From NCBI GenBank assembly GCA_026414765.1, contig JAOAIJ010000022.1, positions 1-64,000 of the forward strand: DNA of 64,000 nucleotides, written 5' to 3'. The notes beneath the pieces were generated by a model. That model searched no databases and was not told the origin of the DNA. It saw nothing but the letters and a program-made list of their open reading frames with translations. The position numbers and the translations under genes were made by a program. Shown one piece after another: positions 25,619 through 45,289 of the stretch (the stretch's first letter is position 1; each line of letters opens with the position of its first letter). This DNA is from Clostridia bacterium (GTDB lineage Bacteria; Bacillota; Clostridia; Acetivibrionales; DSM-27016).

Positions 25619-27010
25619 TTAATTAATTTGACTTACAAGATTGTTTACCCATTTTCCAGAGAACATCCTTCTTAATCCGAACACAAGTCTGACCACCTCT
25701 TCCAGTGAAAGCAGCAGATAAACCCAGTGTACCGGCAGGTCTAAAACAAATGCAGCTATCAGTCCTGATGGGACTCCAACTATCCATGTGGCAGTTGATT
25801 CCATTGCAAACACATATTTGCTGTCTCCTCCACTTGAAAGTATACCTCCCGCTATAATCATGTTCGATACCTTAACCCATAAGAAGAATGAGAATACTAT
25901 AAGCAAGTATTGAGCATATACTTCCGCTTCTGAAGAGATATTATAAACTTTTATGTAAAACCTTGAAATCAAAATCACTATAGCACCTGATACGGCAGCA
26001 AATGTAATACCGAGCTTTACAATCTTTTTTGCATAAACAATTGCTTTATCCTCTTCGTTTGCTCCTATAGCATTCCCTATAATTACTCCGGCTGCGCATG
26101 AAAGGCCCGAGAGTACTCCTACTGCCAATCCCTGGATTGGAAAAGTAATAGCCATAGCTGTGTATTCACTAGTTCCTATTCTTCCATATATAAGGTTATA
26201 CATTGTTTCTCCAAAAACCCATAACATTTCTGTAAGTAATATCGGGTATGTGGTTTTTACGAAACTGTTTACCAGGGATTTTGACATCCCGCGCATATTT
26301 TTGATAGAAACTGCCCCAGGCAGTTTTAATATGTATATTGAAGAAATAATTATTATTAACTCGATGATACGCGAAATTGTTGTTGCAACAGCTGCTCCTT
26401 CTATGCCAAGCTCCGGGAAACCGAATTTACCGAATATGAAAACATAATTCAAAATAACATTACATACCACTGCTGCCATACTTGCCGCCATCGGGATCTT
26501 GACATGCGCCGTAGATCTTAATATTGATGAATATACAATTGTCAGTGTAGTAGGTATATAACTGTAAGCAACTATCCTCAAAAACTTGACTCCATTAGAT
26601 ATTACTTCTGGATCGGTAGTAAATATACCTACACATGCTTTGGGAGCAAGTATTGCAGCCAGTACGAAAACTACCGTTAATACGCCGCCTACCGATAAAC
26701 CAAGGCCTAGCAATTGTCCTATCTTTTCCTTATCTTTTTTACCCCAGAACTGTGCTGTGTATATTCCTATTCCTGAAGCCAAACCACTCAATATAACTGT
26801 AAGTATGGTTATTACCCTGTTGCTTATACCAACGGCAGCAATTGATGATTCACCAAGCTGGCCTACCATTATCTGATCGGTCATATTAAGGGTCATCATT
26901 ATTATACTTTGAAGAGCGATAGGTATGGAAATCTTCAATATATGCTTATTCATTTCACTGTTTTGTACTTTGTCCAGTCTTTGTCCGTTTTTACTTATTA
27001 ACCCCATCAT
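25619..27010 (-). CDS. MATE-family multidrug efflux transporter
   Basis: A 463-residue membrane protein with about twelve helices in two related halves, and the family patterns ISIPIALQSIIMMTLNMTDQIMVG at the N-terminus and FAMESTATWIVGVPSGL in the second half. MATE pumps export drugs or metabolites with Na+ or H+ antiport. It lies 22 bases downstream of a TrmB-type regulator gene whose promoter carries a perfect palindrome, so it is probably the pump that regulator controls. The start follows GGAG. The substrate is unknown. Confidence 0.94.
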   Translation of the reverse strand: MMGLISKNGQRLDKVQNSEMNKHILKISIPIALQSIIMMTLNMTDQIMVGQLGESSIAAVGISNRVITILTVILSGLASGIGIYTAQFWGKKDKEKIGQLLGLGLSVGGVLTVVFVLAAILAPKACVGIFTTDPEVISNGVKFLRIVAYSYIPTTLTIVYSSILRSTAHVKIPMAASMAAVVCNVILNYVFIFGKFGFPELGIEGAAVATTISRIIELIIIISSIYILKLPGAVSIKNMRGMSKSLVNSFVKTTYPILLTEMLWVFGETMYNLIYGRIGTSEYTAMAITFPIQGLAVGVLSGLSCAAGVIIGNAIGANEEDKAIVYAKKIVKLGITFAAVSGAIVILISRFYIKVYNISSEAEVYAQYLLIVFSFFLWVKVSNMIIAGGILSSGGDSKYVFAMESTATWIVGVPSGLIAAFVLDLPVHWVYLLLSLEEVVRLVFGLRRMFSGKWVNNLVSQIN

Positions 27011-27032: not shown

Positions 27033-27818
27033 TTAAACATCACTTTCTCTTTCCACTATCGTGTTTAGTAATATATCTTTATCTACTATTTCACCCTTTC
27101 CCCTGTTTTTTAGTCGCAGCATATATACATCATGATGGATATGTTCTGAGACAATCCGCGTAAGAAGCCTGTTTTCAGTAAATATTCCAATATAATCACT
27201 TCTTTGCTCATTGCTGGAAATAAGTGATTTTTTATTATCAACAACAAGCATAAGTCTTTCATCTCCACATTTTTCATAACTATTCCCATGTGAATAAACT
27301 TCTACAGGCAAACCTTTTGTATCAAGTTCCGTAAAGCTGAAAACTATTGTTCTTACCCCTCTGGCATCTGCGTCCAGAATTTCCTTCTTAAATAACTCAA
27401 GATCAAATTCTGTGTTTATATATATTTCTGCTTCTGCATCTTCAATAAGTTCTTTAGTCTTTGTAATTATTTTGTCATAACCTTCAATATTCAGGAATCT
27501 GTTTTCTACAGGCTTTTTATCCATACTCTTAATTTTTTCTCTGACTTTATCTGCCGTTTTTACAAAATCCCTTTTTAGCTGTTCTATCAGAGTTTCCGGA
27601 TCTTTAGGCTCATATTCGCTTGATTCTCCTGGGACAAGGTAAATACAGCCTCTTTGGTTTAGATTATCAAGAGCAGCATATACAGTAGATCTGGAAAGGT
27701 TTAGTATCTTAGCAATTTTGTAGCCGTTAGCTCTACCCTGGCTTACAAGAGTAATATATACCGCAGCTTCAGTCCTGGAAAAATTCAAGCCCATCAGCTC
27801 TTCAATCAAGTCTTCCAT
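27033..27818 (-). CDS. TrmB-type transcriptional regulator
   Basis: A 261-residue regulator with an N-terminal winged helix (about 5-70; LGLNFSRTEAAVYITLVSQG is replaced here by LMGLNFSRTEAAVYIT and ANGYKIAKILNLSRSTVYAALDNL) and a C-terminal effector domain resembling the TrmB/phospholipase-D-like fold. The family responds to sugars in archaea but is broad in bacteria. Its own promoter overlaps a 25-base palindrome, so autoregulation together with the downstream MATE pump is likely. The start follows AAAGGGGG. Confidence 0.9.
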   Translation of the reverse strand: MEDLIEELMGLNFSRTEAAVYITLVSQGRANGYKIAKILNLSRSTVYAALDNLNQRGCIYLVPGESSEYEPKDPETLIEQLKRDFVKTADKVREKIKSMDKKPVENRFLNIEGYDKIITKTKELIEDAEAEIYINTEFDLELFKKEILDADARGVRTIVFSFTELDTKGLPVEVYSHGNSYEKCGDERLMLVVDNKKSLISSNEQRSDYIGIFTENRLLTRIVSEHIHHDVYMLRLKNRGKGEIVDKDILLNTIVERESDV

Positions 27819-31321: not shown

Positions 31322-31367
31322 AAACCACTGTTATTATTTGGAAACTTACTAATTGGAGGTGTAATGT

Positions 31368-33209
31368 ATGGAATTTCTGGAAGAACAAGAGTATAAAAAG
31401 CAGCTTGACCTAAGTCTTTGGAAAAAATTAATGAAATTTGTCGTACCATATAAGAAACATTTTGTAATACTGATAATACAAATGATCCTAATAGCAGGAG
31501 TGGATGCCATATTTCCTATTCTGAACAAGCTGGCTATTGATAAATTTGTCATTCCTGGTTCTTTTAAAGGATTTTTACCGTTTTGTATTTTATTGTTTGT
31601 CTTGATTACAGCCCAGGCCGTGAATGTAAAATTTATGATCAAGGTAGCTGGGCATATTGAAACAGGAATTCCATATGATATAAGAAAAGCCGGTTTTGAA
31701 AAATTACAGCGGCTTCCCCTTTCCTACTATGACAAAACCCCGGTAGGATGGCTTATGGCAAGAATGACCTCGGATGTAAAAAGACTGGGTACTACATTAT
31801 CATGGAATCTTGTAGACATGTCATGGGCAATGACTCTTATGTTTCTTATGGCTGTACTCATGCTGATCCTAAACTTGAAACTGGCTCTTCTGGTATTGGC
31901 AACCATACCTGCCCTTATCATAGTAAGTCTGGTTTTTCAACGACTGATCCTTAAGAATTATAGAAAAGTGCGAAAAGTGAACTCACATATAACAAGCTCT
32001 TTTAATGAAGGAATTATGGGAGCCAAAACAATTAAAACACTGGTAAGGGAAAAAGAGAGCTTAAATGAATTCAAAGAGTTAACTTTAGAAATGAGAAAGT
32101 ACTCCGTCAGGTCTGCAGTTATGTCTTCTTTTTACACTCCATTGGTAATACTGCTTGGAAGCATAGGAACAGCCGCAATCATCTGGCGGGGCGGTAATGA
32201 CGTAGCAGCCTTCGGTTCAATATCTTACGGAACATTAGTAGCTTTTCTTTCATATGCGACACAATTTTTTGAGCCTGTAAAACAATTTGCAAGAATTTTC
32301 AGTGAAATACAATATGCTCAAGCTTCAGCCGAGCGCATAATGACACTTATTGAAACAGAAGTTGATATAAAGGATTCGGATAAAGTTATCAGTAAATATG
32401 GAAACTACAAAAACCCTGAAATGCAAAAATGGCCTGAATTGAAAGGTGAAATAGAGTTTAGGGATGTATGCTTTTCCTATAACAAAGAAGAAAAAATACT
32501 CGAAAAATTCAATCTCAGTGTTAAGCCAGGCGAAACAATAGCAATTGTCGGTGAAACAGGTTCAGGCAAAACTACTATAGTTAACCTCGCCTGCCGGTTT
32601 TATGAACCTACAGGCGGCAGTATTCTTATAGATGGAATTGATTATAGGGAGAAGCCTCTTTTATGGCTATACTCCAATCTCGGTTACGTATTACAGGAGC
32701 CACATCTTTTTAGTGGTACCGTCCGCGAAAATATTGCTTATACAAGAACCGATGCGTCAATGGATGAAATTATGAATGCTGCAAAACTCGTAAACGCACA
32801 TGATTTCATCACCCGTCTGGAAAATGGCTATGATACCGATGTAGGAGAGAGAGGAAGTAAGCTGTCTACAGGCCAAAAACAGTTGATTTCTTTTGCCCGT
32901 GCAATACTTGCAAACCCGAAAATATTTGTTCTTGATGAGGCTACTTCTTCTGTTGATACAGAGACAGAACACCTTATAAAAGATGCCATTCAAAACATAT
33001 TAAAGGGCCGCACAAGCTTTATTATTGCCCACAGGCTCTCAACAGTAAAGTCAGCTGACAGAATTCTGGTAATTGAAAAAGGCAATATTATTGAAGACGG
33101 GACACACAAAGATCTTCTGCGCAGGAAAGGTTATTACTACAAGCTGTATACCAACCAGTTCATAGAGGAACAGGAAAACAGTGTTTTCAGTGATGAAAAA
33201 GCAGGATAA
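31368..33209 (+). CDS. ABC exporter half-transporter, BmrD/YheH-like (catalytic subunit)
   Basis: A 613-residue half-transporter: charged N-terminus, six membrane helices (about 25-330), then the ATPase domain with Walker A GETGSGKTT, a degenerate signature LSTGQKQLISFARA (canonical LSGGQ), Walker B FVLDEATSSVD with the catalytic Glu, and the switch histidine in IIAHRLS. With the preceding gene this gives one active and one degenerate ATP site, as in BmrCD. The start follows TTGGAGG. A terminator follows. Substrate unknown; drugs are probable. Confidence 0.94.
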   Translation: MEFLEEQEYKKQLDLSLWKKLMKFVVPYKKHFVILIIQMILIAGVDAIFPILNKLAIDKFVIPGSFKGFLPFCILLFVLITAQAVNVKFMIKVAGHIETGIPYDIRKAGFEKLQRLPLSYYDKTPVGWLMARMTSDVKRLGTTLSWNLVDMSWAMTLMFLMAVLMLILNLKLALLVLATIPALIIVSLVFQRLILKNYRKVRKVNSHITSSFNEGIMGAKTIKTLVREKESLNEFKELTLEMRKYSVRSAVMSSFYTPLVILLGSIGTAAIIWRGGNDVAAFGSISYGTLVAFLSYATQFFEPVKQFARIFSEIQYAQASAERIMTLIETEVDIKDSDKVISKYGNYKNPEMQKWPELKGEIEFRDVCFSYNKEEKILEKFNLSVKPGETIAIVGETGSGKTTIVNLACRFYEPTGGSILIDGIDYREKPLLWLYSNLGYVLQEPHLFSGTVRENIAYTRTDASMDEIMNAAKLVNAHDFITRLENGYDTDVGERGSKLSTGQKQLISFARAILANPKIFVLDEATSSVDTETEHLIKDAIQNILKGRTSFIIAHRLSTVKSADRILVIEKGNIIEDGTHKDLLRRKGYYYKLYTNQFIEEQENSVFSDEKAG

Positions 33210-33257: not shown

Positions 33258-33902
33258 TTATTGGGGTGTTGTACTGACAGGCATTTCACACGAACATTCT
33301 TTATAAGCTGCAGCTTCATCCTGAGATGTATTGCATCTTTCAAGGAATTCTTTAATTATTTTCATCATAAGATGGTCAAGAATCATGTGAATATCCTCTA
33401 CCTTCTGCATATCATTAACCGGAACCAGTATATGGTGTTTGGTGCTTTCCTTCAGCTTACCCCCGTTAAAGCCCAGTAAAGCTACAGTATCTGCACCTAC
33501 CGAATTGGCGTATTCTATAGCCTGCACTACGTTTTCAGAATTTCCGCTTCCGGAGATTCCGAAAACCAAGTCCCTGGGAGTCAGATAGTTTTCCAACTGA
33601 AACTTGAATATGCTGTCATAGCTGATATCATTTGCAACAGCCATCATCGTGGATACATTATCATTTAGGCATATAAATTTAAATCTTTTTGACAGATTTC
33701 CGCTTACTCCTTTATTAAAATCATTTACAAAGTGTGAAGCTGTAGATGCACTTCCGCCATTTCCGAAAATATAAATCATACCGCCTTTTGCATATACTTC
33801 TATTAGTTTGTTAATAATAAAATTAATACTATTTCTATCCAATTTTTGTAATATGTCCTTCAACTCATCAAAATATGCTTCTATTTCATTTATAAAATTC
33901 AT
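33258..33902 (-). CDS. gmhA: Sedoheptulose 7-phosphate isomerase GmhA-like
   Basis: GmhA converts sedoheptulose 7-phosphate to D-glycero-D-manno-heptose 7-phosphate, the first step to nucleotide-activated heptose. The 214 residues form a SIS domain: IYIFGNGGSASTASHFVNDF (about 41-60), GISGSGNSENVVQAIEYA and a late DIHMILDHLMM helix carrying conserved acidic and His residues. A Cys-containing C-terminal tail of about 25 residues is extra. It is the last gene of a nine-gene operon that also encodes the next heptose enzymes. Confidence 0.9.
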   Translation of the reverse strand: MNFINEIEAYFDELKDILQKLDRNSINFIINKLIEVYAKGGMIYIFGNGGSASTASHFVNDFNKGVSGNLSKRFKFICLNDNVSTMMAVANDISYDSIFKFQLENYLTPRDLVFGISGSGNSENVVQAIEYANSVGADTVALLGFNGGKLKESTKHHILVPVNDMQKVEDIHMILDHLMMKIIKEFLERCNTSQDEAAAYKECSCEMPVSTTPQ

Positions 33903-33953
33903 TTTAGCAACTCCTTATATATATAATTATGATTTTTAATATGTATGGTTGTT

Positions 33954-35243
33954 TCATGTATTAATTATTTTTTTTACAGCTTCCAGCAGATTTTCCGCAT
34001 ACGCTTCCGGTACAACATCAAACTTCTTATCCTTTCCACCCTCACCTCTTGATAGTAGTATGGTCTTCAAGCCTGCATTTTTCCCTGTCTTTATATCAAC
34101 AGTTGTATCTCCTATCAGATATGATTCTGAAAGATCGATATTGTATCTTAATGCTGCTTTCTCTATCATTCCTATAGCCGGTTTTCTGCAAGTACACACA
34201 ATCTTATAGTCCTTATTTTCCCCGGGATATCCTTTATCAGGATGATGTGGACAATAAAGAATATCATCTACATATACCCTGTGCTCTCCCAGATTCGTCT
34301 CAAGTTTTTTATGTATGTTTTCCAACCCCTCAACAGTACACATGTTTCTTGCCACAACCGGCTGATTGGTTACAACAATACTTAAATATTCAGAACTGTT
34401 AAGCATATTAAGTGCAGGATAAACATCATCATATATTTTCAACTGCTCAGGCTCTGATAATAATCCTACATATTTATTAATGGTACCATCTCTGTCGAGA
34501 AAAACAGCCTTTTGCTTTCCTGCCAGATTCCTTTTTGCAGCAACACCTTTCTTAACATGTTCCTGCACAAGCTTATATCTCTCGGGAGTTCCCATATCTT
34601 TTATATACTCGCTGGTCTTATATCCACAAATTCTCCCTTCTATTGCTCTTGCTATAATATTTTTTTCAAGGTCCTGGGCCATGTTTTCCTGGACATAGTC
34701 CAGTATTCCCCTGCTAAAAACAAAAACTCCGGCATTTATACAGTTGTTGTAATAAAAATCTCTTTTTTCACTTTTACCGATTATTCCTTCTACCATGCCT
34801 GCGGCAGTCATTTTTATCACATCACTGTCGTAAGGATGGTCATTGGGATGAACTGCAAGGGATGCCAGACACCCCATTTTCCTGTGAAAACTGATAAACC
34901 TTTCAAAGTCAATATCAAATATCACATCTCCATAAGAAAGAACAAAGTCATCTGTAAGTACATCCTTTAAATAATACAATGCTCCTGCTGTACCAAGCGG
35001 CTGTTGTTCCTCATAGTAGGTAATGTTCACCCCAAACCCTTTTCCGTCTCCAAAATATTCCTTTATTTTATGCCCCAAGTGACCTATGACAAGTATTATT
35101 TCAGTGATGCCTGCACGTTTGTAGTTCTCAACCTGGTATTCCAATACAGGTTTACCGCATATATTTATCAGAGGCTTGGGGATTTCCTCCGTAAGACTGC
35201 CAAGTCTTGTCCCCTTGCCTCCGGCTAAAATGACCGCTTTCAT
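33954..35243 (-). CDS. Fusion of an HddC-like heptose-1-phosphate nucleotidyltransferase and a GmhB-like phosphatase
   Basis: A 429-residue two-domain protein. Residues 1-235 are a sugar nucleotidyltransferase (LAGGKGTRLGSLTEEIPKPLI, then LGTAGALYYLKD, YGDVIFDID and NAGVFVFS). Residues about 245-425 are a HAD phosphatase of the histidinol/heptose-bisphosphate class: FLDRDGTINKY, the TNQP motif, the zinc-type CPHHPDKG...CTCRKP loop and GDTTVDI. Such fusions would remove the 7-phosphate and activate the 1-phosphate of the heptose. The nucleotide (GDP or another) cannot be told from sequence. Confidence 0.88.
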   Translation of the reverse strand: MKAVILAGGKGTRLGSLTEEIPKPLINICGKPVLEYQVENYKRAGITEIILVIGHLGHKIKEYFGDGKGFGVNITYYEEQQPLGTAGALYYLKDVLTDDFVLSYGDVIFDIDFERFISFHRKMGCLASLAVHPNDHPYDSDVIKMTAAGMVEGIIGKSEKRDFYYNNCINAGVFVFSRGILDYVQENMAQDLEKNIIARAIEGRICGYKTSEYIKDMGTPERYKLVQEHVKKGVAAKRNLAGKQKAVFLDRDGTINKYVGLLSEPEQLKIYDDVYPALNMLNSSEYLSIVVTNQPVVARNMCTVEGLENIHKKLETNLGEHRVYVDDILYCPHHPDKGYPGENKDYKIVCTCRKPAIGMIEKAALRYNIDLSESYLIGDTTVDIKTGKNAGLKTILLSRGEGGKDKKFDVVPEAYAENLLEAVKKIINT

Positions 35244-35299
35244 TATCTACCACCTCCTGTAACTGCCCAGTGCTTAACAAATTTTCAATTCTATAGTTT

Positions 35300-36730
35300 T
35301 TACTTCTTCAAAGTCTCTTTATATACATCTATATATTGCCCTACATACTTGTCCCAACCATGGTCCTGAGCCATTCCATTCTTAACAATCTTATTCCACT
35401 CTTCTTTGCGATGATATAGCTTTATAGCCTTGCGTATGGTATACAGCATCACCTTTGCATTGTAATATCTGAAAGTAAAGCCGTTTCCCACTCCTGTTTC
35501 TTCATCATAATCCTGTATGCTGTCGCTTAACCCTCCTGTTTTTCTTACTATAGGCACAGTCCCATATCTCAGTGCTATTAACTGACCTATTCCGCATGGT
35601 TCAAACCTTGATGGCATAAGGAACATATCTGCACCCGCATAAGCCTTGTAAGCAAGATCATCATTGTAAAGAGTGAAGGAAAACTTATCAGGATACTTTT
35701 GTTGAGCCTTCCTGCAGTATTCCTCATAAATCTCATGCCCATCTGAAACAATAACAAACTGGATATCGCTTTTCATCAAATCATCCATAGCATTTCTTAC
35801 AAGATCAAGTCCCTTTTCAGGTATAAGCCTGGAGAAAAGGGAAATAACGGGTACATCTTCTCTCACGGGCAGATTCAGCAGCTTTTGCAATTCCCTTTTG
35901 TTAGTATGTTTTCCTTTCGGGTCTTCCAGACTATAATTGGCAAAAAGCCTTGTATCTGTGGCTGGATTATTAATCTTCATATCCAGTCCGCACAAAACAC
36001 CGTATAAATCCTGTTGACGCTTGCATATCTCTTCATGAAGCGTTGCTCCGCCCTCTTCAGTAGCTATCTCTTTTGCATATGTAGGACTTACTGTCGTAAT
36101 AACGTCAGTATGTAATATACCTGCCTTCATGAAGCTTACCTGTTCATAATAATCTATACCGCGCCTAAGAAATGTTTCCTGATCCATATCCAAAAACTTA
36201 CAATTTTCACCATCAAACACTCCCTGGTAACCAAGGTTATGTATTGTTAATATAGTCTTTATTTTTTCATACAATGGATGGTCATTGCACTTTGATTTAA
36301 GCAGCATGGGAATAAACGCAGTATGCCAATCCTGGCAATGGATTATATCTGGTTTAAATTCCAGTGACGGCAATGCTTCAACTATAGCCTTACACATAAA
36401 TATAAAGCGTTCAGCTTCATCCGGATATCCGTATAAACTATCCCTTCCGAAGTAATGAGGCTGGTTCAGGAAATATACAGGTATATCCTCATACATAGAA
36501 GCTTCAATGCTGTACTGATAGAATTTATTTCCCATTTTAATCTCATTTGCTGCCTCATTAGTTATTTCTTCGGGATAAGGCCTGACAGGTTTATTAAATC
36601 TGGGAACTATGACTCTCACATCCCACCCTTGATTTCTTAGTCCCTTCGGAAGTGAGTAGTTAAAAACCCCCATCGATCCATTTGTAAACGGATATAGCTG
36701 GGTTGTTACAAATAATATTGATTTATTCAT
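35300..36730 (-). CDS. Glycogen/starch synthase-like glycosyltransferase (GT5), copy 1
   Basis: A 476-residue GT-B enzyme of the GlgA type: IIHCQDWHTAFIPMLLK, LTIHNLGYQGVF, VSPTYAKEIAT, SRLIPEKGLDL and the nucleotide-sugar loop PSRFEPCGIGQLIALRYGTVPIVRKTGGLSDSI, which holds the conserved Glu. The N-terminal KTGGLGDV motif of ordinary GlgA, which contacts ADP-glucose, is replaced by NGSMGVFNYS. It may use another donor or acceptor. It lies 37 bases after a second, more divergent copy, within the heptose operon. The symbol glgA is withheld for that reason. Confidence 0.88.
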   Translation of the reverse strand: MNKSILFVTTQLYPFTNGSMGVFNYSLPKGLRNQGWDVRVIVPRFNKPVRPYPEEITNEAANEIKMGNKFYQYSIEASMYEDIPVYFLNQPHYFGRDSLYGYPDEAERFIFMCKAIVEALPSLEFKPDIIHCQDWHTAFIPMLLKSKCNDHPLYEKIKTILTIHNLGYQGVFDGENCKFLDMDQETFLRRGIDYYEQVSFMKAGILHTDVITTVSPTYAKEIATEEGGATLHEEICKRQQDLYGVLCGLDMKINNPATDTRLFANYSLEDPKGKHTNKRELQKLLNLPVREDVPVISLFSRLIPEKGLDLVRNAMDDLMKSDIQFVIVSDGHEIYEEYCRKAQQKYPDKFSFTLYNDDLAYKAYAGADMFLMPSRFEPCGIGQLIALRYGTVPIVRKTGGLSDSIQDYDEETGVGNGFTFRYYNAKVMLYTIRKAIKLYHRKEEWNKIVKNGMAQDHGWDKYVGQYIDVYKETLKK

Positions 36731-36767
36731 TGTGTACCTCCAGAAATTTCAATGTTTACTTCTACAG

Positions 36768-38222
36768 CTATTTACAATCCAATTTCCCATACAGATCGAT
36801 ATATTTCTCTGCCTGTCCTCCAATTCCGAAATCCAGCTGCATGCAATTCTTAACGATTTTTTCCCATTCATCCTTCCGCCCATATACCTTTAAAGCTCTT
36901 CTTACTGTATGGAGAAATATCTTGATAGCAGAAAACCTGTAAGAAAAGCCGGTACCCTTCCCTGTTTTTTCATCATAATCCGCAACCATATTTGAAAGTC
37001 CGCCTGTCTGGCGTACTACAGGGATTGTCCCGTATCTCATTGCAATCATTGCTTTTTCCCCCCATGGCTCACATATAGAAGGCATCATTAAGATATCCGC
37101 AGCTGCAAAAACTTTACATGCAATATCCTTATCATAAGGTAAAATAGAAAAGTTTTTTTCATAGTCCCCGGTTAATGACCGGAAAAATTCTTCATAGATC
37201 AGCTCCTCATCATCCTTACGCCCTTCTTCCTGCGGAAGCATCATTACTACCTGGGTATTGCCTTTAATAATATCCTCCAGAGTATACCTGATAATTTCTC
37301 CTCCCTTTTCGTCCTTCAGCTTTGAGTTCAGGAAGAGCAATGGTATACCTTCGTCGACATTAAAGCCCAATTCTTTCTGGACAGCTTTTTTGTTTTCCCG
37401 TTTGGCAGCAATATTTTCAATACCATAATTAACAGATAATCTATCATCCGATGCAGGATCATATTCTTTAAGGTCAATACCGTTTAAAATACCATATATC
37501 TTGCCTTGCCGGCTTTTTATAACATCTTCAAGAGTCCTCCCGAAAAATTCCGATTCTATCTCGGAAGCATAGCGTGGACTGACAGTTGTTACAGTATCTG
37601 AATAAATCAATCCGGCTTTTAAGAAATTTATCTGGTCATAATAATCAATTCCGTATTGAACCAAAGTCTGCCAGTTCATATCTAGAAACACGCAGTTGTC
37701 CTTGTCAAAGACTCCTTGATTTCCCAAGTCATTAAATGTCAATACAGTTTTTGTATTACGATATATATCTGAAGAATTGTATTTAACTTTCAACAGATAT
37801 GGAATAAATGCAGTTGTCCAATCCTGACAATGAATTATGTCCGGCTTAAATCCGAGAAAAGGAATTGCTTCGGGTACAGCTCTGCTGAAGAATGCAAACC
37901 GTTCGGCATCATCGGCATAATCATATAATCTTTTCCTGTCAAAATAATCTGGTGCATCTATAAAATATATCGTTATCGAATCAAACAGCAGGCTTTTGAT
38001 TTTATACACAACTTCTTTATCATTCATTTTTATTTTCATAACTGCAACTGTATCCATGTTATTTGAATATTTCTGAAGGATATTACTGTTTGCAGGCATT
38101 ATAACTCTAATATCAACGCCTTTCCGTGAGATGTTCTTGACAAATTCCATGTTTATCGCACTGGAAGTAATATCACTCAAAGGGTACAGATGAGAAACGG
38201 CAACGAGAACTGCTTTATTCAT
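36768..38222 (-). CDS. Divergent GT5 glycogen-synthase-like protein, copy 2
   Basis: The 484 residues are collinear with the next gene: HCQDWTTAFIPYLLK, LTFNDLGNQGVFD, VSPRYASEIES and RYGTIPVVRQTGGLSNM. Key places differ: the N-terminal loop reads LSDITSSAINMEF (no KTGGL), the RLxxEKG motif is SKLKDEKG without the Arg, and the donor loop reads ICEPWGEKAMIAM instead of RFEPCGLGQL. It is probably a duplicated subunit with altered or lost activity, perhaps pairing with copy 1. The start is ATG at 38222 with a weak GGGG site. Confidence 0.82.
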   Translation of the reverse strand: MNKAVLVAVSHLYPLSDITSSAINMEFVKNISRKGVDIRVIMPANSNILQKYSNNMDTVAVMKIKMNDKEVVYKIKSLLFDSITIYFIDAPDYFDRKRLYDYADDAERFAFFSRAVPEAIPFLGFKPDIIHCQDWTTAFIPYLLKVKYNSSDIYRNTKTVLTFNDLGNQGVFDKDNCVFLDMNWQTLVQYGIDYYDQINFLKAGLIYSDTVTTVSPRYASEIESEFFGRTLEDVIKSRQGKIYGILNGIDLKEYDPASDDRLSVNYGIENIAAKRENKKAVQKELGFNVDEGIPLLFLNSKLKDEKGGEIIRYTLEDIIKGNTQVVMMLPQEEGRKDDEELIYEEFFRSLTGDYEKNFSILPYDKDIACKVFAAADILMMPSICEPWGEKAMIAMRYGTIPVVRQTGGLSNMVADYDEKTGKGTGFSYRFSAIKIFLHTVRRALKVYGRKDEWEKIVKNCMQLDFGIGGQAEKYIDLYGKLDCK

Positions 38223-38344
38223 TTTTACACCCCTTTTTCTGTCAACTCATAAAAATCAGCATGACGTACCTGGCAAATTAATTCTATATAGCTATACTAT
38301 CTATAAATCTTACCAGGTAGTCACAACTGGAAACTAAATAATTC
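38223..38344 (-). other. Structured gap inside the heptose operon
   Basis: The only gap over 60 bases in the operon. TACCTGG (around 38265-38271) can pair with CCAGGTA (around 38319-38325), enclosing AT-rich palindromic sequence. No T-run follows, so it may be an mRNA-processing or stability element. Confidence 0.35.
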
Positions 38345-39361
38345 TTACGCACTGATTACCTTTTTATAGTCTACAAAGCCGCAATTATCATTGACATTAA
38401 GTATAATTCTGCTTCCATATTTATCAAATGAAACCGGCAATTCCTTGTATTCTTTTAAAGCTTCTCTAACTTTCTGCCTGTTTCCGGGAGGACATAAGAA
38501 AAGGAAATATCCTCCTCCCCCCGCTCCCAGAAGTTTACCACCATAGATTCCTGCTTTTTTAGCAGTTTCATACATCATGTTAATTTCACTATTATAAATT
38601 TTGTTGGAAAGTTTCTTTTTCTCATCCCAGCTTGTATCAAGCATTTCACCTATTTTCTTTATATTCATGTTTAAGAATTCCTTTTCACATGTCATAGCCA
38701 TTTTTTTTAATGTGTCCAAAGCATCAAAATTGTTTCCGATATTCTTCTTCTGGTCAGAAAGCACTGAAGAAGCCTTTCTGGCAATTCCTGTATAGAACAT
38801 CATTGTGTATGAATTCAGTAGTTTATAGCCACTGTTCGAAATGTTGATACTTTCTATATCTACGCTGCTATCCTTATTGAAAAGATATTTTCTGAAACCG
38901 CCAAATGCAGCTGCATACTGATCTTGCTTCCCTATTGGTTCATTTAGCTGATCTATTTCTATTTTGCATGCAAGCTCTGCAAGTTCCCTGGGGCTTTTAA
39001 AATCTCCTTTAAAAGTGAACAGCGAATTCAAGAGACCTACTGTAAATGAACTTGATGATCCAAGGCCACTTCCTTTTGAAGGGATATCTGCTATGCACGT
39101 AATTTCTATACCACAGTCTATCTCTGCAATTCTTAGTGCCTCCCGTATTATTTCATGCTGGATTTCATCTATGTGGTCTACTTCTTCCCTTTTTGAATAA
39201 TGTGCAACAACCTTGTTGTCATATCTGGACTTAACAATAATATAAATATATTTATCAATGGTGGCGCTGAAAACTACTCCACCGTTTACTCCATAATAAT
39301 CCCTTATATCCGTACCTCCACCGAAAAAACTCACTCTTAGAGGTGTTTGACTTATAATCAT
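38345..39361 (-). CDS. hddA: D-glycero-D-manno-heptose 7-phosphate kinase HddA-like (GHMP kinase)
   Basis: HddA phosphorylates heptose 7-phosphate at C1 in the GDP-heptose pathway. The 338 residues show the N-terminal TPLRVSFFGGGTDIRDYY motif typical of HddA, the GHMP ATP loop PSKGSGLGSSSSFTVGLLN (about 92-110), EIDQLNEPIGKQDQYAAAFGG and the C-terminal KLLGAGGGGYFLFL motif. The start at 39361 follows AGGAGG; a longer frame would overlap the upstream HAD gene. It is part of the same operon as gmhA and the nucleotidyltransferase-phosphatase fusion. Confidence 0.92.
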   Translation of the reverse strand: MIISQTPLRVSFFGGGTDIRDYYGVNGGVVFSATIDKYIYIIVKSRYDNKVVAHYSKREEVDHIDEIQHEIIREALRIAEIDCGIEITCIADIPSKGSGLGSSSSFTVGLLNSLFTFKGDFKSPRELAELACKIEIDQLNEPIGKQDQYAAAFGGFRKYLFNKDSSVDIESINISNSGYKLLNSYTMMFYTGIARKASSVLSDQKKNIGNNFDALDTLKKMAMTCEKEFLNMNIKKIGEMLDTSWDEKKKLSNKIYNSEINMMYETAKKAGIYGGKLLGAGGGGYFLFLCPPGNRQKVREALKEYKELPVSFDKYGSRIILNVNDNCGFVDYKKVISA

Positions 39362-39386
39362 ATCTTTTTTATACCTCCTGTATATA

Positions 39387-40076
39387 TTAACTGCTTTCAG
39401 AAAATCTTTTTTCCAAAATAACATTCAATATATTTACGTCTATTTCAGAAAAGTGTGATATTGTTTTGTCAGCCTTTGATAAGTCCTGATTGCCGGAATT
39501 AGGATTTTTAAAGCCGATACATGGCATTCCTGCTTCCAGTGAAGCAATAATTCCGTTACGCGAATCTTCTATTACCACACAATTGGACGGTTTTATACTC
39601 AAAATCCGGGCCGCCTTTAAAAAGATATCCGGTTCCGGCTTTCCTTTTTCAACTTCTTCACCACTGACAACCAAATCAAAGTACCCTTTTATATCCAACT
39701 TATTCAGAATGATATCTATTAGCTTTACAGGAGAAGATGAAGCAATTGCAGTTTTTATTCCTTTTTCTCTCAATTCTCTGATAAGATCCAAAACACCGTC
39801 TATAGGTCTCAGGCTTTCTTGAATACTCATCTGTTTGATCACCTGGTTTTTATGAAATACAAGGAGTTCTTCAACAGTATGCGGCAAGCCGTAGTTGCTC
39901 TTTATTCTATGCCACATTTCTTCCAGAGTTATACCGACAAAGGAGTGATGTTCTGCTTCAGGTATAATTAGACCAAACTTGCCGAATGATTTTCTTTCTA
40001 TTTCGAAATAAATGGGTTCACTGTCTATTATTACTCCATCCATATCAAAAATAACTGCTTTTAGTAAATCTCTCAT
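39387..40076 (-). CDS. HAD hydrolase, beta-phosphoglucomutase/phosphatase-like
   Basis: A 229-residue class IA HAD enzyme: motif I IFDMDGVIIDSE (about 9-20), a helical cap, motif II TAIASSSP, the motif III lysine in KGKPEPDIFLKAA and motif IV VIEDSRNGI. This set occurs in beta-phosphoglucomutase and in small sugar phosphatases; the substrate is unknown. With a neighbouring GH13 enzyme, a role in glucose-1-phosphate or maltose breakdown is plausible. It lies 50 bases after the RibD-like gene. Confidence 0.88.
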   Translation of the reverse strand: MRDLLKAVIFDMDGVIIDSEPIYFEIERKSFGKFGLIIPEAEHHSFVGITLEEMWHRIKSNYGLPHTVEELLVFHKNQVIKQMSIQESLRPIDGVLDLIRELREKGIKTAIASSSPVKLIDIILNKLDIKGYFDLVVSGEEVEKGKPEPDIFLKAARILSIKPSNCVVIEDSRNGIIASLEAGMPCIGFKNPNSGNQDLSKADKTISHFSEIDVNILNVILEKRFSESS

Positions 40077-40126
40077 TTTACCTTCATCTCTCCTTAATAA
40101 ATTAGCTTGATTTCCTGTGGCAGTTT

Positions 40127-40813
40127 TTATGCAACAGGCCTGTCATGCATTGTGTATGCATTTCTTGCAAACCTCAACAGGGTATAATTCTCACGCGGTT
40201 GTATATCGATAATCCTATACTTTTTTGTCGAAGACATGTCTCTGTATCCAATGCCATCAACAAGAGTAATGTTTGATGTTCCGCCGATAATAATGGGAAG
40301 CTGCATGAGAATAATCTCATCAGCCAGATCATTTGCGACAATGCTCCAATTCAGTTGCCCTCCTCCTTCAACCATAACACTTTTTATGTTATGTTGTTCT
40401 TCAAGGCATCTGAACAATTCTTTAAAGTCTAGCTTTTCTTTGCCGCAAACTATATATTGCTTGCCCATTCCGGTAATCAGGTCAGCCTTTTCCTTATCAA
40501 AGCCCTTTTCTGTAGTTGCTACTATGGTCCTGCCCTTATCCACTAAAACATTGGAATCTGGAGGAATATCCATTGTAGATGTCGGAATGATCCTTACCGG
40601 ATTTCTGTTTTCTTCATAACGGTTTGTCAGAAATGGATTATCTGTAATAATTGTTTTTCTTCCTACCATAATTCCATCCACTTTTCCTCTGAATTTATGT
40701 ATAAATTCCAAATCTTCATTACTGAATAATTTAAAAAGATCTTTACTTGAATTTCCTGCTCCTAAAGTCAACTTTCCATCAATAGAAATCTGACTGAATA
40801 TAGTAGTTTTCAT
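40127..40813 (-). CDS. RibD C-terminal-type / Rib7-like pyrimidine reductase
   Basis: A 228-residue member of the dihydrofolate-reductase-like RibD C-terminal family: FSQISIDGKLT, KVDGIMVGRKTIITDNPFLT, RIIPTSTMDIPPDSN and the late VMVEGGGQLNWSIVANDLADEI motif. In riboflavin synthesis this domain reduces the ribosylamino-pyrimidine, with or without a deaminase domain. Here it is alone and in a carbohydrate operon, with no other riboflavin gene near, so its reaction is uncertain. It may reduce a different sugar. Confidence 0.88.
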   Translation of the reverse strand: MKTTIFSQISIDGKLTLGAGNSSKDLFKLFSNEDLEFIHKFRGKVDGIMVGRKTIITDNPFLTNRYEENRNPVRIIPTSTMDIPPDSNVLVDKGRTIVATTEKGFDKEKADLITGMGKQYIVCGKEKLDFKELFRCLEEQHNIKSVMVEGGGQLNWSIVANDLADEIILMQLPIIIGGTSNITLVDGIGYRDMSSTKKYRIIDIQPRENYTLLRFARNAYTMHDRPVA

Positions 40814-40833
40814 AATTTTTCACTCCATTATAG

Positions 40834-41982
40834 TTAATTATATTTTTTGTTCAGATTTTTCGCTCTTTCCTCCATTTGAACTATGACCTCATCCAATTCC
40901 ACTCTTTTGTTCCAGTAGAGATCTATACCAAATTCCAAGACATTCCATGTGTTTGCTGTTTTATTTCCGGGCACAAGTGGATAACCCGCTTTCATTTGCT
41001 CCAATACAACCTTTCTGTTGTAAGTGCTTGTCTTTTCAACCTTATCCAGAGCTGAGGGGACAAGCGGTATTCTATTTACACCGTTAGCCCATCTTATCTG
41101 ACATTCCTCACTGATCATCAGGCTCGCAAACTCTAGCAGATAATCCCTTAAATCAGATTCCAGAGAATTGTTTGGGAACATCAGGCCTATTGAAGATGTG
41201 ACGGGAGTGGAGTTCATTCCTTTTATCGAAGGTATCGCACATACTCCGAGCTTTTCGCCCAGGTTTCCACTGATAAAGTCATACACCCATTCACCGTTGA
41301 CTATTGCTGCAATATCACCGGAATGAAACTTGTCCAGCATTTCATATGAAGCGTTAAAACTTGATATTACTCCTTTACTCATTAAATAATCTATATATGA
41401 AAATGCAGTTTTCACTTTGGAATAGTCAAGTTTTTCCGAATCATTATCAACAACAGGCCAGGTACCACAAGCAGATAGTATCGGCAGTAACCAGTAGGAT
41501 TGGTTTACATCTGTAGATGCAGGTATAAACCCTTCTGATAACAGTTCACCGGATATCTCCTCCAGCTCTTCCCAACTTTCAGGGGCTTTGCCTAATATAT
41601 CCTTATTGTAATACATTATAAGATGATTACCCCCAAGAACGGGAAGCCCAAACTGTCTGCCGTTCATGTTCATTGTTTGAAGCATTTTTTCCGGAATTAT
41701 CCCCTTATAAAGCTTACCAGGAACATCAGAGCATAAAGCATTTTTACCGAGCAGTGACAAATCCGACGGTACAAAAGCCATATGAGGCCCTTCGCCTGTT
41801 ATATATATGCTGTCAATCCTCTCTACCATTTCCTTAAGACTCATAACTTCCGGTTTTATACTTACTCCATATTTATTTGAAAAATCATTGCAGATTTCTT
41901 CAAGTACATTTTTTGACAGATCTCCCGGACCATCAAACTCATGCCATATGACAATTTCTTTTTCATTTCTTTGTACTGACAT
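40834..41982 (-). CDS. Cytosolic maltose-binding-type solute-binding protein (no signal peptide)
   Basis: A 382-residue protein with the fold of family 1 extracellular solute-binding proteins: EIVIWHEFDGPGDLSK at the start, MYYNKDILGKAPESWEEL, the FHSGDIAAIVNGEWVYDF segment and a helical C-lobe. Known relatives are exported lipoproteins; this one begins directly with the mature domain, with no hydrophobic segment or lipobox in any in-frame extension. No permease or ATPase genes are near. It may be an intracellular oligosaccharide sensor or carrier. The start at 41982 follows GGGAG; an ATG six codons earlier has no site. Confidence 0.85.
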   Translation of the reverse strand: MSVQRNEKEIVIWHEFDGPGDLSKNVLEEICNDFSNKYGVSIKPEVMSLKEMVERIDSIYITGEGPHMAFVPSDLSLLGKNALCSDVPGKLYKGIIPEKMLQTMNMNGRQFGLPVLGGNHLIMYYNKDILGKAPESWEELEEISGELLSEGFIPASTDVNQSYWLLPILSACGTWPVVDNDSEKLDYSKVKTAFSYIDYLMSKGVISSFNASYEMLDKFHSGDIAAIVNGEWVYDFISGNLGEKLGVCAIPSIKGMNSTPVTSSIGLMFPNNSLESDLRDYLLEFASLMISEECQIRWANGVNRIPLVPSALDKVEKTSTYNRKVVLEQMKAGYPLVPGNKTANTWNVLEFGIDLYWNKRVELDEVIVQMEERAKNLNKKYN

Positions 41983-42006
41983 CTTCGTTCTCCCTTCCAT
42001 TATTTG

Positions 42007-43941
42007 CTAATACTTAACTGCAACGATTGCCTGTCCAGGCTTTAAAACTATACAGTCTGTTAATTTTTTGTCAATACTGTTTAAATGAGTGTCGGCAAGG
42101 ATTCTTAGTTCTTTTATACCAGAAAATACCTTTTCCAGATTGACATTAATCTCATTGTCCATGTTTAAGTTAAAACAGCAAACAAGCATTTTTTGTTTTT
42201 GTACATATGCATAAATAATTATATCTTCTGGTGTTTCCGGTATAGTAAAGTTATCCGGCTTTATCAGGCCAAGGTATTCTTTTCTTATCGAATACAAACG
42301 TCTTAATAATAAATTCATATCTTCTGCATACTGATTTGTCCAGTCTATTTTTATCTTGTTAAAAAATGCTCTAGGTATCTCAGCACCGTTTGTATTATCT
42401 GCCAATCCACAATTTAAAGGCTGCTTTTCATTTACCTCAAAGCCTGTTGTTATGTAGGGAACAGCATTTGGAAGGAAGTAATTGAACACCCCCATCATCC
42501 TTGCTAGATTAATACCCCCGTTTCTGCTTGTAATCCTTGGAGTATCTGCTGTCTCTGCACATGCGAAAATATTGATTTCCAATGACGGCAGCTCTTTTAA
42601 GTAATCTACAAGTGTTTTCTTACTGATTTTGGACATAATGTTCCAACCGCTACCAAGCATTATGTTGTATCCGCTGCTTTTTGCCTTCTTATGGTTTGAA
42701 TTGAACAAATCCTCACTGATAAGGATTGCATCAGGTTTTATTTTTTTGACTACATTAAACAAATGCTGAAGCAGAGGAACCGGGAGCGTGTGCCCTATAT
42801 CAACTCTGAAACCGTCGAGTCCGTAAACTTCCATATCATGTCGAAGTACTTCTTCAAAAATATCCCACAAACCCTGATTTGGTATACCTGCAGGAAAAAT
42901 ATTGCCTTTAATGGTATCAAACATAATGTAAGGAGCCTGATCAGCTTTAAGATACTTTTGCACCGAAGGTGTCACATCCATAAAAAGACGCAGGAATGTT
43001 GTATCTGTCCATATTGGCTGTACGTCATTTATCCAGTCCGAGTGTGCAGGCGAAGTAGTTATTTTCATTTCAAGTTCTACTAATGTAAGTAAATCCTCTC
43101 CGGTTTCCCTGGACATCTGCTTTATTCTTTCCCACAATTCGGGATTCAGCTTATCGGGAGAATGCGAAAATTTCTCAAGGTGTACTGCTGTCTCACAGGA
43201 GTTATATATAATATCAATTTTCTCAGGAGTACATTCTTCAAAAAAGCCTAATTCCGGTATTTCTGGTGGCTTAAATCCTTCTATATGCTCAATTTTTATC
43301 CAATATACCCAATCCGGATGCTTTTCTATCAAATCACTGTTTCTCGCTGTTACCCTTGGTATAAAGTCGTGCACTACCTTAATGCCCATAAGGTGACATG
43401 CCTCTATCAAAGCAGCAAATTCTCTCTTAATATCGAAATCTACCATCCCGTCAAGCAAATCATCATGCAGGTTCGGATCCAGTTCAAAGTAGTTTTGTAT
43501 CGCATATGGAGATCCTATATCGCCTTTTTGATTCAGCGTACTGTATTTTGTGACAGGCAGGACATAAAGAATATCTACTCCATAATTCTTTAGCATAGGT
43601 AAAAGAATAATTGTTCTTAAGAAAGTACCTGATTCAATTTTGCCATCGTCATTATAATCCCATGCAGTTGAATATCTTACAAGTGAATTGTAAATGACGC
43701 TTTTGCTTAAATCATTATTTTCATGAAATAAGCCGGACTTCTCCCCATCAAGTATATAGTCAATACACGCTTTAATAAATGCATAGGGATTTACAGATAT
43801 TTCTCCATTCTTTTGATCCAGAACATCTTTATATCCTATAGTATTCCATATGGAAGGTATCCAAAACGATTTATGTGCAACCGATTGCATTTCCTCTAAA
43901 TACAAATATACATTATTTAAATTTTTTGTTTTGTTAATCAA
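42007..43941 (-). CDS. Cytosolic GH13 alpha-amylase-family enzyme, unusual subgroup
   Basis: A 644-residue GH13 protein without a signal peptide. The catalytic set is present: GFRVDIGH with Arg379 and the nucleophile Asp381, the acid/base Glu410 in LISEDLF, and the third carboxylate Asp466 in AETADTPR. Region I is HDFIPR rather than DVVINH, and the usual His before the third Asp is Ala. These traits recall the GlgE-like and related maltosyl-transferring branches, but specificity cannot be assigned. It starts with TTG after AAGGGGAAG and is the first gene of the heptose/GT5 operon. A LacI-type palindrome lies inside its beginning. Confidence 0.85.
   Translation of the reverse strand: MINKTKNLNNVYLYLEEMQSVAHKSFWIPSIWNTIGYKDVLDQKNGEISVNPYAFIKACIDYILDGEKSGLFHENNDLSKSVIYNSLVRYSTAWDYNDDGKIESGTFLRTIILLPMLKNYGVDILYVLPVTKYSTLNQKGDIGSPYAIQNYFELDPNLHDDLLDGMVDFDIKREFAALIEACHLMGIKVVHDFIPRVTARNSDLIEKHPDWVYWIKIEHIEGFKPPEIPELGFFEECTPEKIDIIYNSCETAVHLEKFSHSPDKLNPELWERIKQMSRETGEDLLTLVELEMKITTSPAHSDWINDVQPIWTDTTFLRLFMDVTPSVQKYLKADQAPYIMFDTIKGNIFPAGIPNQGLWDIFEEVLRHDMEVYGLDGFRVDIGHTLPVPLLQHLFNVVKKIKPDAILISEDLFNSNHKKAKSSGYNIMLGSGWNIMSKISKKTLVDYLKELPSLEINIFACAETADTPRITSRNGGINLARMMGVFNYFLPNAVPYITTGFEVNEKQPLNCGLADNTNGAEIPRAFFNKIKIDWTNQYAEDMNLLLRRLYSIRKEYLGLIKPDNFTIPETPEDIIIYAYVQKQKMLVCCFNLNMDNEINVNLEKVFSGIKELRILADTHLNSIDKKLTDCIVLKPGQAIVAVKY
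43876..43889. promoter_or_regulatory. LacI-type operator inside the start of the GH13 gene
   Basis: TGCAACCGATTGCA, a near-perfect palindrome with central CG, about 52 bases inside the coding region. It matches the LacI/CcpA-family pattern and the upstream site at 44167. Confidence 0.55.
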
Positions 43942-44166: not shown

Positions 44167-44182
44167 ATGCAACCGCTTGCAT
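44167..44182. promoter_or_regulatory. LacI-type operator upstream of the heptose/GT5 operon
   Basis: ATGCAACCGCTTGCAT: arms ATGCAA/TTGCAT around CCGC, the standard LacI-family operator form. It is 226 bases before the GH13 start and 292 bases from a second such site, suitable for looping. The 275-base gap around it (43942-44216) holds no gene. No LacI-type regulator is encoded in this window. Confidence 0.65.
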
Positions 44183-44216: not shown

Positions 44217-45254
44217 TTATAACATAAGAGCGGTTTTTATGGTCTCACAACTTACTGCACATCTGGTATCCAAGTCATATCCAAGAAGTTCATTTATAGC
44301 TTCTTTATATTCTTCCAGCGGGTATTTTCTCGTTACCAGTTTATTCAGATCAGGCAATGTCGAAGCAAATTGGATTGTTGTCTCAAACAGCTGATTATAT
44401 TCGCCCAGCCCCAAAATTTTTATTCCGTTTGATAAATATTTTGCAGGTGAAAAGGTAAATTTGTAATTCGGATTAATCCCCAAGAGTACAATCCTACCCC
44501 CGCGTTCTATATATTCTTCAGCAAATTCAAGCTGATTACCGATTGCATCTATAACCAGATCAAATTTACGACCAGAATTAATTTTATAAACTGTTTCAAC
44601 ACTTAGCATTTCCGGACTGAAAGCATAGTCTGATATAGTTTTTGCATATTTAAGTCTAAACTCACTTTTTTCCGTTGCAGCTGTCAATCGGGACAGTTTT
44701 TTTGATGCCATCTGGCACAGCATTCCCATTGGTCCTGATCCAAGTACAAGGACAGAATCATCAACACTTATTTCTGCTTTCATCAGATTATGCAGTACAC
44801 AAGCTAGAGGCTCAATCATCAAAGCCGTCTCCCAGCTCATATTGTCGGGTATTCTATAAACATATTTATCTTCACAGACAAAATATTCAGCAAAAGTTCC
44901 ATGTATATTCAGCCCGGCGATGTCAAACCCTCCAGTACGGCCGCCATTACACAGATTGGTTGCACCTCTCCTGCAATAATAGCAATTGCCGCAGTATTGA
45001 TTAGGATCTATGACAACTCTGTCTCCAACTTTTATATCTCCGACTTTTTCTCCGACTCCGGTTACTGTACCTACAGCTTCATGCCCTCTTATGACTTCAG
45101 GTGCTTCCTGTTCTTTTCCTGCAATTAAAGCAAGATCTGTTCCACATATTCCTGTAAGGTGTATTTTAATCTTTACCTGGTTTGGAGTTTTTATTTCCGG
45201 TTCTGCTACCTCAGTTTTTCTAAGTTTGTTTTCTGACCATATTAAGGCTTTCAT
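44217..45254 (-). CDS. Zinc-dependent medium-chain alcohol/sorbitol dehydrogenase
   Basis: A 345-residue MDR-family dehydrogenase: catalytic zinc residues in GICGTDLALI and GHEAVGTV, structural zinc lobe CGNCYYCRRGATNLC (about 90-104), IEPLACVLHN, and the Rossmann motif VLGSGPMGMLCQ. Such enzymes oxidise polyols or threonine with NAD(P). The start at 45254 follows GGGAGG. A perfect 16-base palindrome lies 36 bases upstream. It is upstream of the carbohydrate operon on the same strand but separated by 275 bases with operators, so it is probably a separate unit. Confidence 0.9.
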   Translation of the reverse strand: MKALIWSENKLRKTEVAEPEIKTPNQVKIKIHLTGICGTDLALIAGKEQEAPEVIRGHEAVGTVTGVGEKVGDIKVGDRVVIDPNQYCGNCYYCRRGATNLCNGGRTGGFDIAGLNIHGTFAEYFVCEDKYVYRIPDNMSWETALMIEPLACVLHNLMKAEISVDDSVLVLGSGPMGMLCQMASKKLSRLTAATEKSEFRLKYAKTISDYAFSPEMLSVETVYKINSGRKFDLVIDAIGNQLEFAEEYIERGGRIVLLGINPNYKFTFSPAKYLSNGIKILGLGEYNQLFETTIQFASTLPDLNKLVTRKYPLEEYKEAINELLGYDLDTRCAVSCETIKTALML

Positions 45255-45289
45255 TATATCGCCTCCCTTCAAAACATCAATTATCAAAA

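Follow-up and report, generated by a model that had tools for sequence, protein, structure and literature searches.

Which product is made by an operon in which genes for nucleotide-activated heptose stand beside two glycogen-synthase-like genes, and which of its genes belong together? The question arises at positions 33258-43941 of a 64,000-nucleotide stretch from a Clostridia bacterium (GenBank assembly GCA_026414765.1, contig JAOAIJ010000022.1, positions 1 to 64,000; the whole stretch is referred to here as the window), where a sequence-only reading had named nine minus-strand genes and proposed that they form a conserved unit for a heptose-capped intracellular glucan. All nine open reading frames (ORFs) are present on that strand and their families, as named, are upheld by Pfam and NCBIfam scans. 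The conserved unit, however, is not this nine-gene run; it consists of a zinc-type dehydrogenase (ADH), a GH13 enzyme, a cytosolic MalE-like solute-binding protein (SBP), a RibD-type reductase and a MATE exporter. We consider that the run is probably a biosynthetic cluster for an exported, maltosylated amino- or iminosugar oligosaccharide, here with a heptose/GT5 module.

Conserved Core of the Cluster

Gene content was compared in 68 loci, 28 from named genomes and 40 stretches picked by their SBP. The former come from a scan of named genomes with a pair of GH13 sequences that returned 30 loci, of which 28 at 46-60% identity were kept and two at 26-27% were dropped; they belong to Paenibacillus, Fontibacillus, Cohnella, other Paenibacillaceae, Clostridium and Lachnospiraceae, and the presence of GH13 in them is by selection. 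The latter comprise one stretch from genome G832 and the 39 matches in the Paenibacillus family. As a single query the window SBP has a match in just 1 of 58 genomes of the order, the host genome itself, and a profile made from 16 SBPs matches 2 of 391 genomes of the class, 4 of 206 in the family of genome G428 and 38 of 344 sampled genomes of the Paenibacillus family (39 matches). In a sample of the phylum the same profile gives matches in 18 of 398 genomes at 1e-40; only the host and genome G451 score above 500 bits, the other 16 matches (140-176 bits) being ordinary SBPs with a hydrophobic N-terminus. Removal of 16 repeats, recognized by an identical 300-base stretch, and of locus L142, which has an SBP and a GT5 and neither RibD nor GH13, leaves 51 distinct clusters, for which the counts cover flanks of at most ∼10 kb on each side (a few contigs are short).

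ADH and GH13 are found in all 51 clusters, SBP in 50, RibD in 49 and MATE in 47. The incomplete cases are L057 and L058, which are cut contigs, L066, which ends before MATE, and L047, which is without MATE within the flank examined. All five genes occur together in 39 of the 40 SBP-picked loci; 16 of these 40 repeat GH13-picked ones, and among the 24 new loci 23 have the full set, so that the clustering exceeds chance. Other genes are optional: a HAD phosphatase of the system's type (8 clusters; a raw total of 12 includes four flanking HADs), a nonribosomal peptide synthetase (NRPS) like that of the sister cluster described below (8), an AAC(3)-like gene (5), a major facilitator superfamily transporter (4) and PurF (3). 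The PurF genes lie beside the core in L047 (C. weizhouense), L051 (C. cibarium) and L132 (from the genus of C. weizhouense); the one of the three that was scanned, from L047, scores 480 bits with TIGR01134, for which the cut-off is 350. Within these flanks heptose or GT5 genes occur in none of the 51 clusters, and the proposal of a conserved nine-gene heptose-glucan unit is not supported by them. The sequence-only reading had correctly placed RibD, HAD and the binding protein in the operon and had left out the dehydrogenase at 45287-44217, whose counterpart is in every cluster. The core genes of the window, together with its HAD gene, are as follows.

44217..45287, minus strand: zinc-type dehydrogenase of the medium-chain dehydrogenase/reductase (MDR) superfamily, GsnA/GutB1-like (Pfam PF08240/PF00107, ADH_N/ADH_zinc_N)
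42007..43941, minus strand: predicted GH13 maltosyltransferase-type transglycosylase, TTG start (family profile against PDB, catalytic triad)
40834..42000, minus strand: MalE-like SBP, no signal peptide (maltose-binding protein (MBP) entries at ∼100 bits)
40127..40813, minus strand: stand-alone RibD-type reductase, GsnB-like (RibD_C the sole Pfam domain)
39387..40076, minus strand: HAD phosphatase (53% identical to its counterpart in an azasugar-type cluster of P. polymyxa)
25619..27010, minus strand: system-type MATE exporter, lying 6.2 kb past the operon's downstream end (MatE domain)

Within one related operon, at L069:9617-10408, lies a gene for an AAC(3)-like aminoglycoside acetyltransferase (the one case in which the domain was read), and similar genes are present in L066, L070, L071 and L072, the hosts being Lachnospiraceae metagenome-assembled genomes (MAGs) and one Clostridium MAG. 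The enzyme may modify, or protect against, the product. Both the AAC(3)-like and the NRPS-BtrH genes of sister clusters fit an amine-bearing product, and the MATE gene would fit its export. Twenty-two viral-contig stretches matched a pattern built from the GH13 pair, and none of them encodes a relative.

Maltosyltransferase-Type GH13 and Cytosolic Binding Protein

The maltosyltransferase of Thermotoga maritima (1gju/1gjw) is the best PDB match, at 611 bits over profile columns 7-594 of 645, of a profile built from 19 GH13 sequences that include six ordinary ones; the next PDB entry scores 87. The catalytic residues D381, E410 and D466 are invariant in all 19 aligned sequences. The window enzyme is accordingly listed above with the prediction of a maltosyltransferase-type transglycosylase. 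Its ordinary relatives have other company, as seven of nine adjoin a glucan-phosphorylase-like ORF (one Pfam-confirmed), the exceptions being L034 and the second GH13 of contig C8.

No hydrophobic N-terminus is present in any of the 48 readable proteins among 54 SBPs of the system (highest 12-residue mean hydropathy 0.87), whereas all 16 ordinary SBPs have one (lowest value 2.7). At L149:9380-12502 GH13 and SBP are fused in a single ORF of 1,040 residues. This fusion and the lack of a signal peptide argue for a cytosolic glucan-binding partner of the GH13 transferase rather than an uptake protein. Inspection by eye of what we take to be the MBP ligand residues, in our presumed numbering, indicates that the stacking aromatics seem to be kept and several polar residues changed, a comparison too weak to be used here.

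Enzymes of a Proposed Iminosugar Pathway

According to the available part of the galactosyrin report (PMC11844564), PurF, the RibD-type reductase GsnB, the phosphatase GsnC and the PF00107 dehydrogenase GsnA make an iminosugar from phosphoribosyl pyrophosphate in vitro. In terms of enzyme type the same set of RibD-type reductase, phosphatase (here a HAD) and dehydrogenase is found at the window locus, a match that had been overlooked even as the RibD, HAD and SBP genes were recognized. RibD_C is the only Pfam domain of the reductase, which scores 122 bits against 2azn; another RibD_C protein of the host genome, on contig C43, lies in a frame of 378 aa, as long as a bifunctional RibD. The stand-alone enzyme is predicted to convert phosphoribosylamine to 1-amino-1-deoxyribitol 5-phosphate. 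A plasmid search with it gave 13 records at 26-33% identity, which carry annotations as riboflavin enzymes or deaminase or none at all, and no gsn-like cluster was recognized among them.

Over 208 aa the window HAD shares 53% identity with that of a plasmid-borne P. polymyxa cluster, aminotransferase-gutB1-HAD, which is putatively of the azasugar type. In a tree the P. polymyxa protein falls among the system HADs; the four flanking HADs set apart in the survey are at 28-30% identity, and L066 carries a HAD of a different kind. At 1e-5 nothing in the window matches the azasugar aminotransferase of P. polymyxa. We predict that the window HAD dephosphorylates an aminopolyol phosphate.

The ADH tree separates 13 cluster ADHs (that of the window and 12 chosen others), an Embleya protein and GutB1 from five generic MDRs and an unannotated S. 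mirabilis MDR with support of 95/88. GutB1 makes the ring-closing carbonyl in the pathway described in the available text of PMC8382821, and the dehydrogenase of the window is likewise predicted to be an aminopolyol dehydrogenase that produces a carbonyl for ring closure. A plasmid search with the ADH returned 32 records, including GutB1 of P. polymyxa and a 39% match in Embleya. In the Embleya stretch a 28% HAD match was seen, while neither RibD nor GH13 had a counterpart; it was set aside.

Heptose Genes and the GT5 Pair

The remaining genes of the run are those that had suggested a heptose-containing glucan.

38345..39361 (ORF open from 39424), minus strand: HddA-type GHMP kinase, putative heptose 7-phosphate kinase (NCBIfam HddA)
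36768..38222, minus strand: GT5-B, degenerate and glycogen-synthase-like, one of a pair of 484 and 476 aa (residue losses)
35300..36730, minus strand: GT5-A, glycogen-synthase-like, with catalytic residues but no KTGGL donor motif (alignment)
33954..35243, minus strand: HddC-GmhB fusion, putative sugar-1-phosphate nucleotidyltransferase and heptose bisphosphate phosphatase (Pfam/NCBIfam)
33258..33902, minus strand: GmhA, putative sedoheptulose 7-phosphate isomerase (TIGR00441)

Nine GT5 residues were compared in what we take to be E. coli numbering, with H161, R300, K305 and E377 presumably catalytic. K15, G17, G18, H161, N162, R300, K305, E377 and C379 are all invariant in the ordinary GT5 sequences of 29 relatives (one from each, second copies being left out, of 34 genomes with a match, host included). 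GT5-A is without K15 and G18 and retains H161, R300, K305 and E377; in GT5-B K15, G17, G18, H161, N162, R300 and C379 are replaced and K305 and E377 retained. The KTGGL donor motif, whose lysine and two glycines are kept in 29 of 29 relatives, is thus lost in both proteins. A tree places GT5-A as sister to GT5-B (99/97) and both with the GT5s of contig C8 and locus L142 (100/99), a grouping that holds also when GT5-B is omitted. On these sequence grounds GT5-A and GT5-B are not ordinary glycogen synthases, in agreement with the earlier view that they had diverged; their lineage is one tied to the present system.

Contig C8 of the host genome carries a sister cluster with GH13 (63% identical), SBP (44%), RibD-type reductase (64%) and MATE genes; it also holds a GT5, another GH13 and an NRPS whose domains are C-A-T-BtrH_N (a domain order read in C8 and L063 only). 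Since it has the GH13-SBP-RibD trio and, in the 30 kb examined, no dehydrogenase or HAD of the window's kind, the trio would be the shared part and the heptose genes not. At L142:8573-11237 a cytosolic SBP adjoins a GT5 that is 63% identical to the one of C8; the genome in question, G1092, has the full cluster elsewhere. The SBP-linked GT5s of L142 and C8 make GT5 a recurrent though rare partner of the system; they retain all nine residues except N162. The NRPS of the sister cluster, at L025:3329-8173, has its BtrH-like domain at the C-terminus, and similar genes are those counted in 8 of the 51 related clusters.

The sequence-only reading had pointed out that the operon lacks a GT9 heptosyltransferase, and none was found in the whole of the 96.9% complete host genome. 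With GT5s that are not of the ordinary kind and no GT9 found in the genome, a GT5 acting on activated heptose stays plausible. In acarbose biosynthesis two GT5-like enzymes act, and one of them, AcbS, uses GDP-valienol, a GDP-activated C7 unit, as set out in the available part of PMC9200736; by this precedent it is reasonable to suggest that GT5-A transfers heptose.

The heptose enzymes all score under their NCBIfam cut-offs (GmhA 112 bits against 209 for TIGR00441, HddA 170 against 600, HddC 101 against 300, GmhB 139 against 178), and the nucleotidyltransferase half of the fusion scores best with the mannose-1-phosphate guanylyltransferase model. HddC-GmhB-like fusion proteins (E <= 1e-50) occur in 10 of 391 genomes of the class, host included. 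The surroundings of the other nine look polysaccharide-like, NRPS or unclear (by eye except for L213), and among the ORFs listed for these loci there is no full GT5, SBP of this kind or system GH13; the nearest case is L218, where an ORF of 215 aa matches GT5-A at 29%. In the loci compared, the expectation that heptose and GT5 genes would be conserved as neighbours is not borne out, and the heptose cassette looks recruited into this operon. L213:1-12831 and L214:6533-19946, from two genomes of the host's taxonomic order, have the fused HddC-GmhB, GmhA and HddA with an NRPS-like gene, L213 also encoding an M20 peptidase and a NeuB-like protein (Pfam); they are possibly a heptose-bearing peptide cluster.

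These results bear on the alternative that survives best, namely that one operon holds two unrelated modules, an iminosugar unit (ADH, GH13, SBP, RibD, HAD, MATE) and a heptose/GT5 unit serving another glycan. That heptose genes are seen with the core only here, and that the nine other fusion loci have surroundings of other kinds, is what this alternative would lead one to expect. It is nonetheless unlikely, because the grouping of GT5-A and GT5-B with the SBP-adjoining GT5s of C8 and L142 ties the GT5s to the system and because HddA follows HAD after about 25 bases and is separated from GT5-B by 122.

Operon Layout and Boundaries

From GH13 to GmhA the gaps between successive genes are 6, 20, 50, -38, 122, 37, 56 and 51 bases. 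The -38 gap between HAD and HddA becomes about +25 if HddA begins at 39361, a start preceded by AGGAGG and the most likely one, so that no overlap with the HAD gene need be assumed. The dehydrogenase gene lies 275 bases upstream of the nine-gene run on the same strand; further upstream, at 45947-45354, is a 197-aa HTH_32/HTH_33 protein that resembles part of a transposase. On the other side two opposite-strand, convergent genes at 29522-33209, read by eye as ABC exporters, intervene between the operon and the TrmB/MATE genes. The statement that the operon has no exporter is true of the nine genes and does not extend to the neighbourhood, since the MATE gene at 27010-25619, on the same strand, encodes a protein 61% identical over 447 aa to the MATE of the C8 sister cluster. 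Other features are listed below.

27033..27818, minus strand: TrmB-type sugar regulator adjoining the MATE gene (PF01978, 60.6 bits)
44169..44180, no strand assigned: LacI/MalR-type operator-like site between the dehydrogenase and GH13 genes (GCAANCGNTTGC match)
43877..43888, no strand assigned: second LacI/MalR-type operator-like site, within the start of GH13 (GCAANCGNTTGC match)

It is uncertain whether the TrmB-type regulator is part of the system. The sequence GCAANCGNTTGC, which we take to be the LacI/MalR operator consensus, has three copies in the window with 0.03 expected; the third, at 11979-11990, is far from the operon. Such sites are not conserved: a copy a short way ahead of the ADH gene was seen in just two of the relatives, L135 and L136.

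Proposed Pathway and Its Alternatives

The best reading of these genes, from which both activities and product are deduced, is a galactosyrin-type iminosugar core with maltosyl decoration and a GT5/heptose extension. Phosphoribosylamine derived from PurF would be reduced by the RibD-type enzyme to 1-amino-1-deoxyribitol 5-phosphate. The HAD would then remove the phosphate, the dehydrogenase would oxidize a secondary hydroxyl and the amine would close a pyrrolidine-type ring, a sequence demonstrated in vitro for galactosyrin (PMC11844564, available part). GH13 would move a maltosyl unit from glycogen or maltodextrin onto the core, with the cytosolic MalE-like protein holding the glucan or the product; this step and the preceding one could take place in either order. 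In this genome only, GmhA, HddA, GmhB and HddC would supply D-glycero-D-manno-heptose in nucleotide-activated form, GDP being the probable carrier; heptose or another sugar would then be added by GT5-A, possibly partnered by the degenerate GT5-B. The MATE pump would export the product, and this product would be likely to target competing enzymes that degrade starch or glycogen.

Several observations weigh against this pathway. The window ADH is 33% identical to GutB1 and 29-33% identical to generic MDRs, and the branch of GutB1 in the tree is long; the likeness to GsnA, GsnB and GsnC is one of described enzyme type. PurF is absent from the window, a HAD of the system's type was not seen within the flanks of 43 of the 51 related clusters, and neither a dehydrogenase nor a HAD of the system's kind was seen in 30 kb of C8. 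Heptose genes are joined to the core in this one genome only, their role in the same product resting on operon position, and given the sub-cut-off scores the nucleotide, and even the sugar, of the heptose pathway could differ. Finally, the C8 and L142 GT5s, which keep KTGGL, may still use ADP-glucose. The most specific version of the proposal is no more than tentative: a new acarbose-like class of pseudo-oligosaccharide built from a purine-pathway amine, in which a maltosylated iminosugar is assembled in the cytosol on a soluble maltose-binding-type protein and extended with heptose by a GT5 switched from ADP-glucose to GDP-heptose, its degenerate twin serving as partner.

The product might instead be an open-chain aminoribitol glycoside, or some other RibD-derived metabolite, rather than a ring-closed iminosugar. 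A free amine could be acylated ahead of ring closure by the AAC(3)-like and NRPS-BtrH enzymes, no ADH was seen in the C8 stretch, and the product itself is a prediction. We regard this as doubtful, somewhat more so than two separate modules, in view of a dehydrogenase that is present in 51 of 51 clusters and groups with GutB1, the maker of a ring-closing carbonyl (PMC8382821, available part). The original model, in which the cytosolic binding protein senses an intracellular glucan that contains heptose or is capped with it, is very improbable, for while the run has four heptose activities, two GT5 genes and a MalE-like SBP without signal peptide, and the genome has no GT9 that we could find, the conserved partners of GH13 and SBP (RibD, ADH and MATE, with PurF, AAC(3)-like and NRPS-BtrH as options) would be needless for a storage glucan and are left unexplained by it, and heptose genes are in 0 of 51 clusters.

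Relation to Known Systems

No description of this gene combination was found in the open-licence literature, subscription papers lying outside the search. If the exported iminosugar oligosaccharide is the correct reading, the set of dehydrogenase, maltosyltransferase-type GH13, cytosolic SBP, RibD-type reductase and MATE, found in 38 of the 344 sampled Paenibacillus-family genomes and in some clostridia, would be a genome signature for undescribed sugar-mimic natural products, and a cytosolic maltose-binding-type protein would gain a testable role. Sugar-mimic compounds tend to inhibit glycosidases, as do acarbose, miglitol and galactosyrin.

The family of the window GH13 is homologous to the T. 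maritima maltosyltransferase over nearly the whole length and shares the GH13 catalytic triad, but the window gene has amine-sugar genes and the gene of a cytosolic binding protein as its neighbours. All four activities of the GDP-heptose pathway (GmhA, HddA, GmhB, HddC) are predicted, whereas HddC and GmhB are fused, the scores are under curated cut-offs and the genome yielded no GT9. The gsn cluster of Pseudomonas syringae shares the RibD-type reductase, the phosphatase, the PF00107 dehydrogenase and a transporter, and would share a start from phosphoribosylamine that needs no aminotransferase; it differs in having five genes, GsnA-E (GsnD without assigned function), and the available part of PMC11844564 names no GH13, SBP, GT5 or heptose genes. 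With the azasugar clusters (GabT1-YktC1-GutB1 and the aminotransferase-GutB1-HAD cluster of P. polymyxa; PMC8382821, available part) the window has in common a dehydrogenase of the same superfamily and the 53% identical HAD, but it holds no match to the aminotransferase, which the RibD-type reductase would replace.

The acarbose cluster, as far as the available part of PMC9200736 describes it, offers the closest parallel for the GT5 pair, with two GT5-like enzymes (AcbI and AcbS), one of which takes a GDP-activated C7 unit as donor, with maltose as a building block and with an amine in the product. The window GT5s are shorter (476 and 484 aa compared with over 700 for AcbI and AcbS), the C7 unit would here be a heptose rather than valienol, and no cyclitol (valiolone) synthase domain is found among the nine operon proteins or the ADH, the proteins to which that search was confined. 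Should heptose transfer by GT5-A prove correct, the window would join acarbose as an instance in which relatives of glycogen synthase have been taken into the assembly of a natural product.

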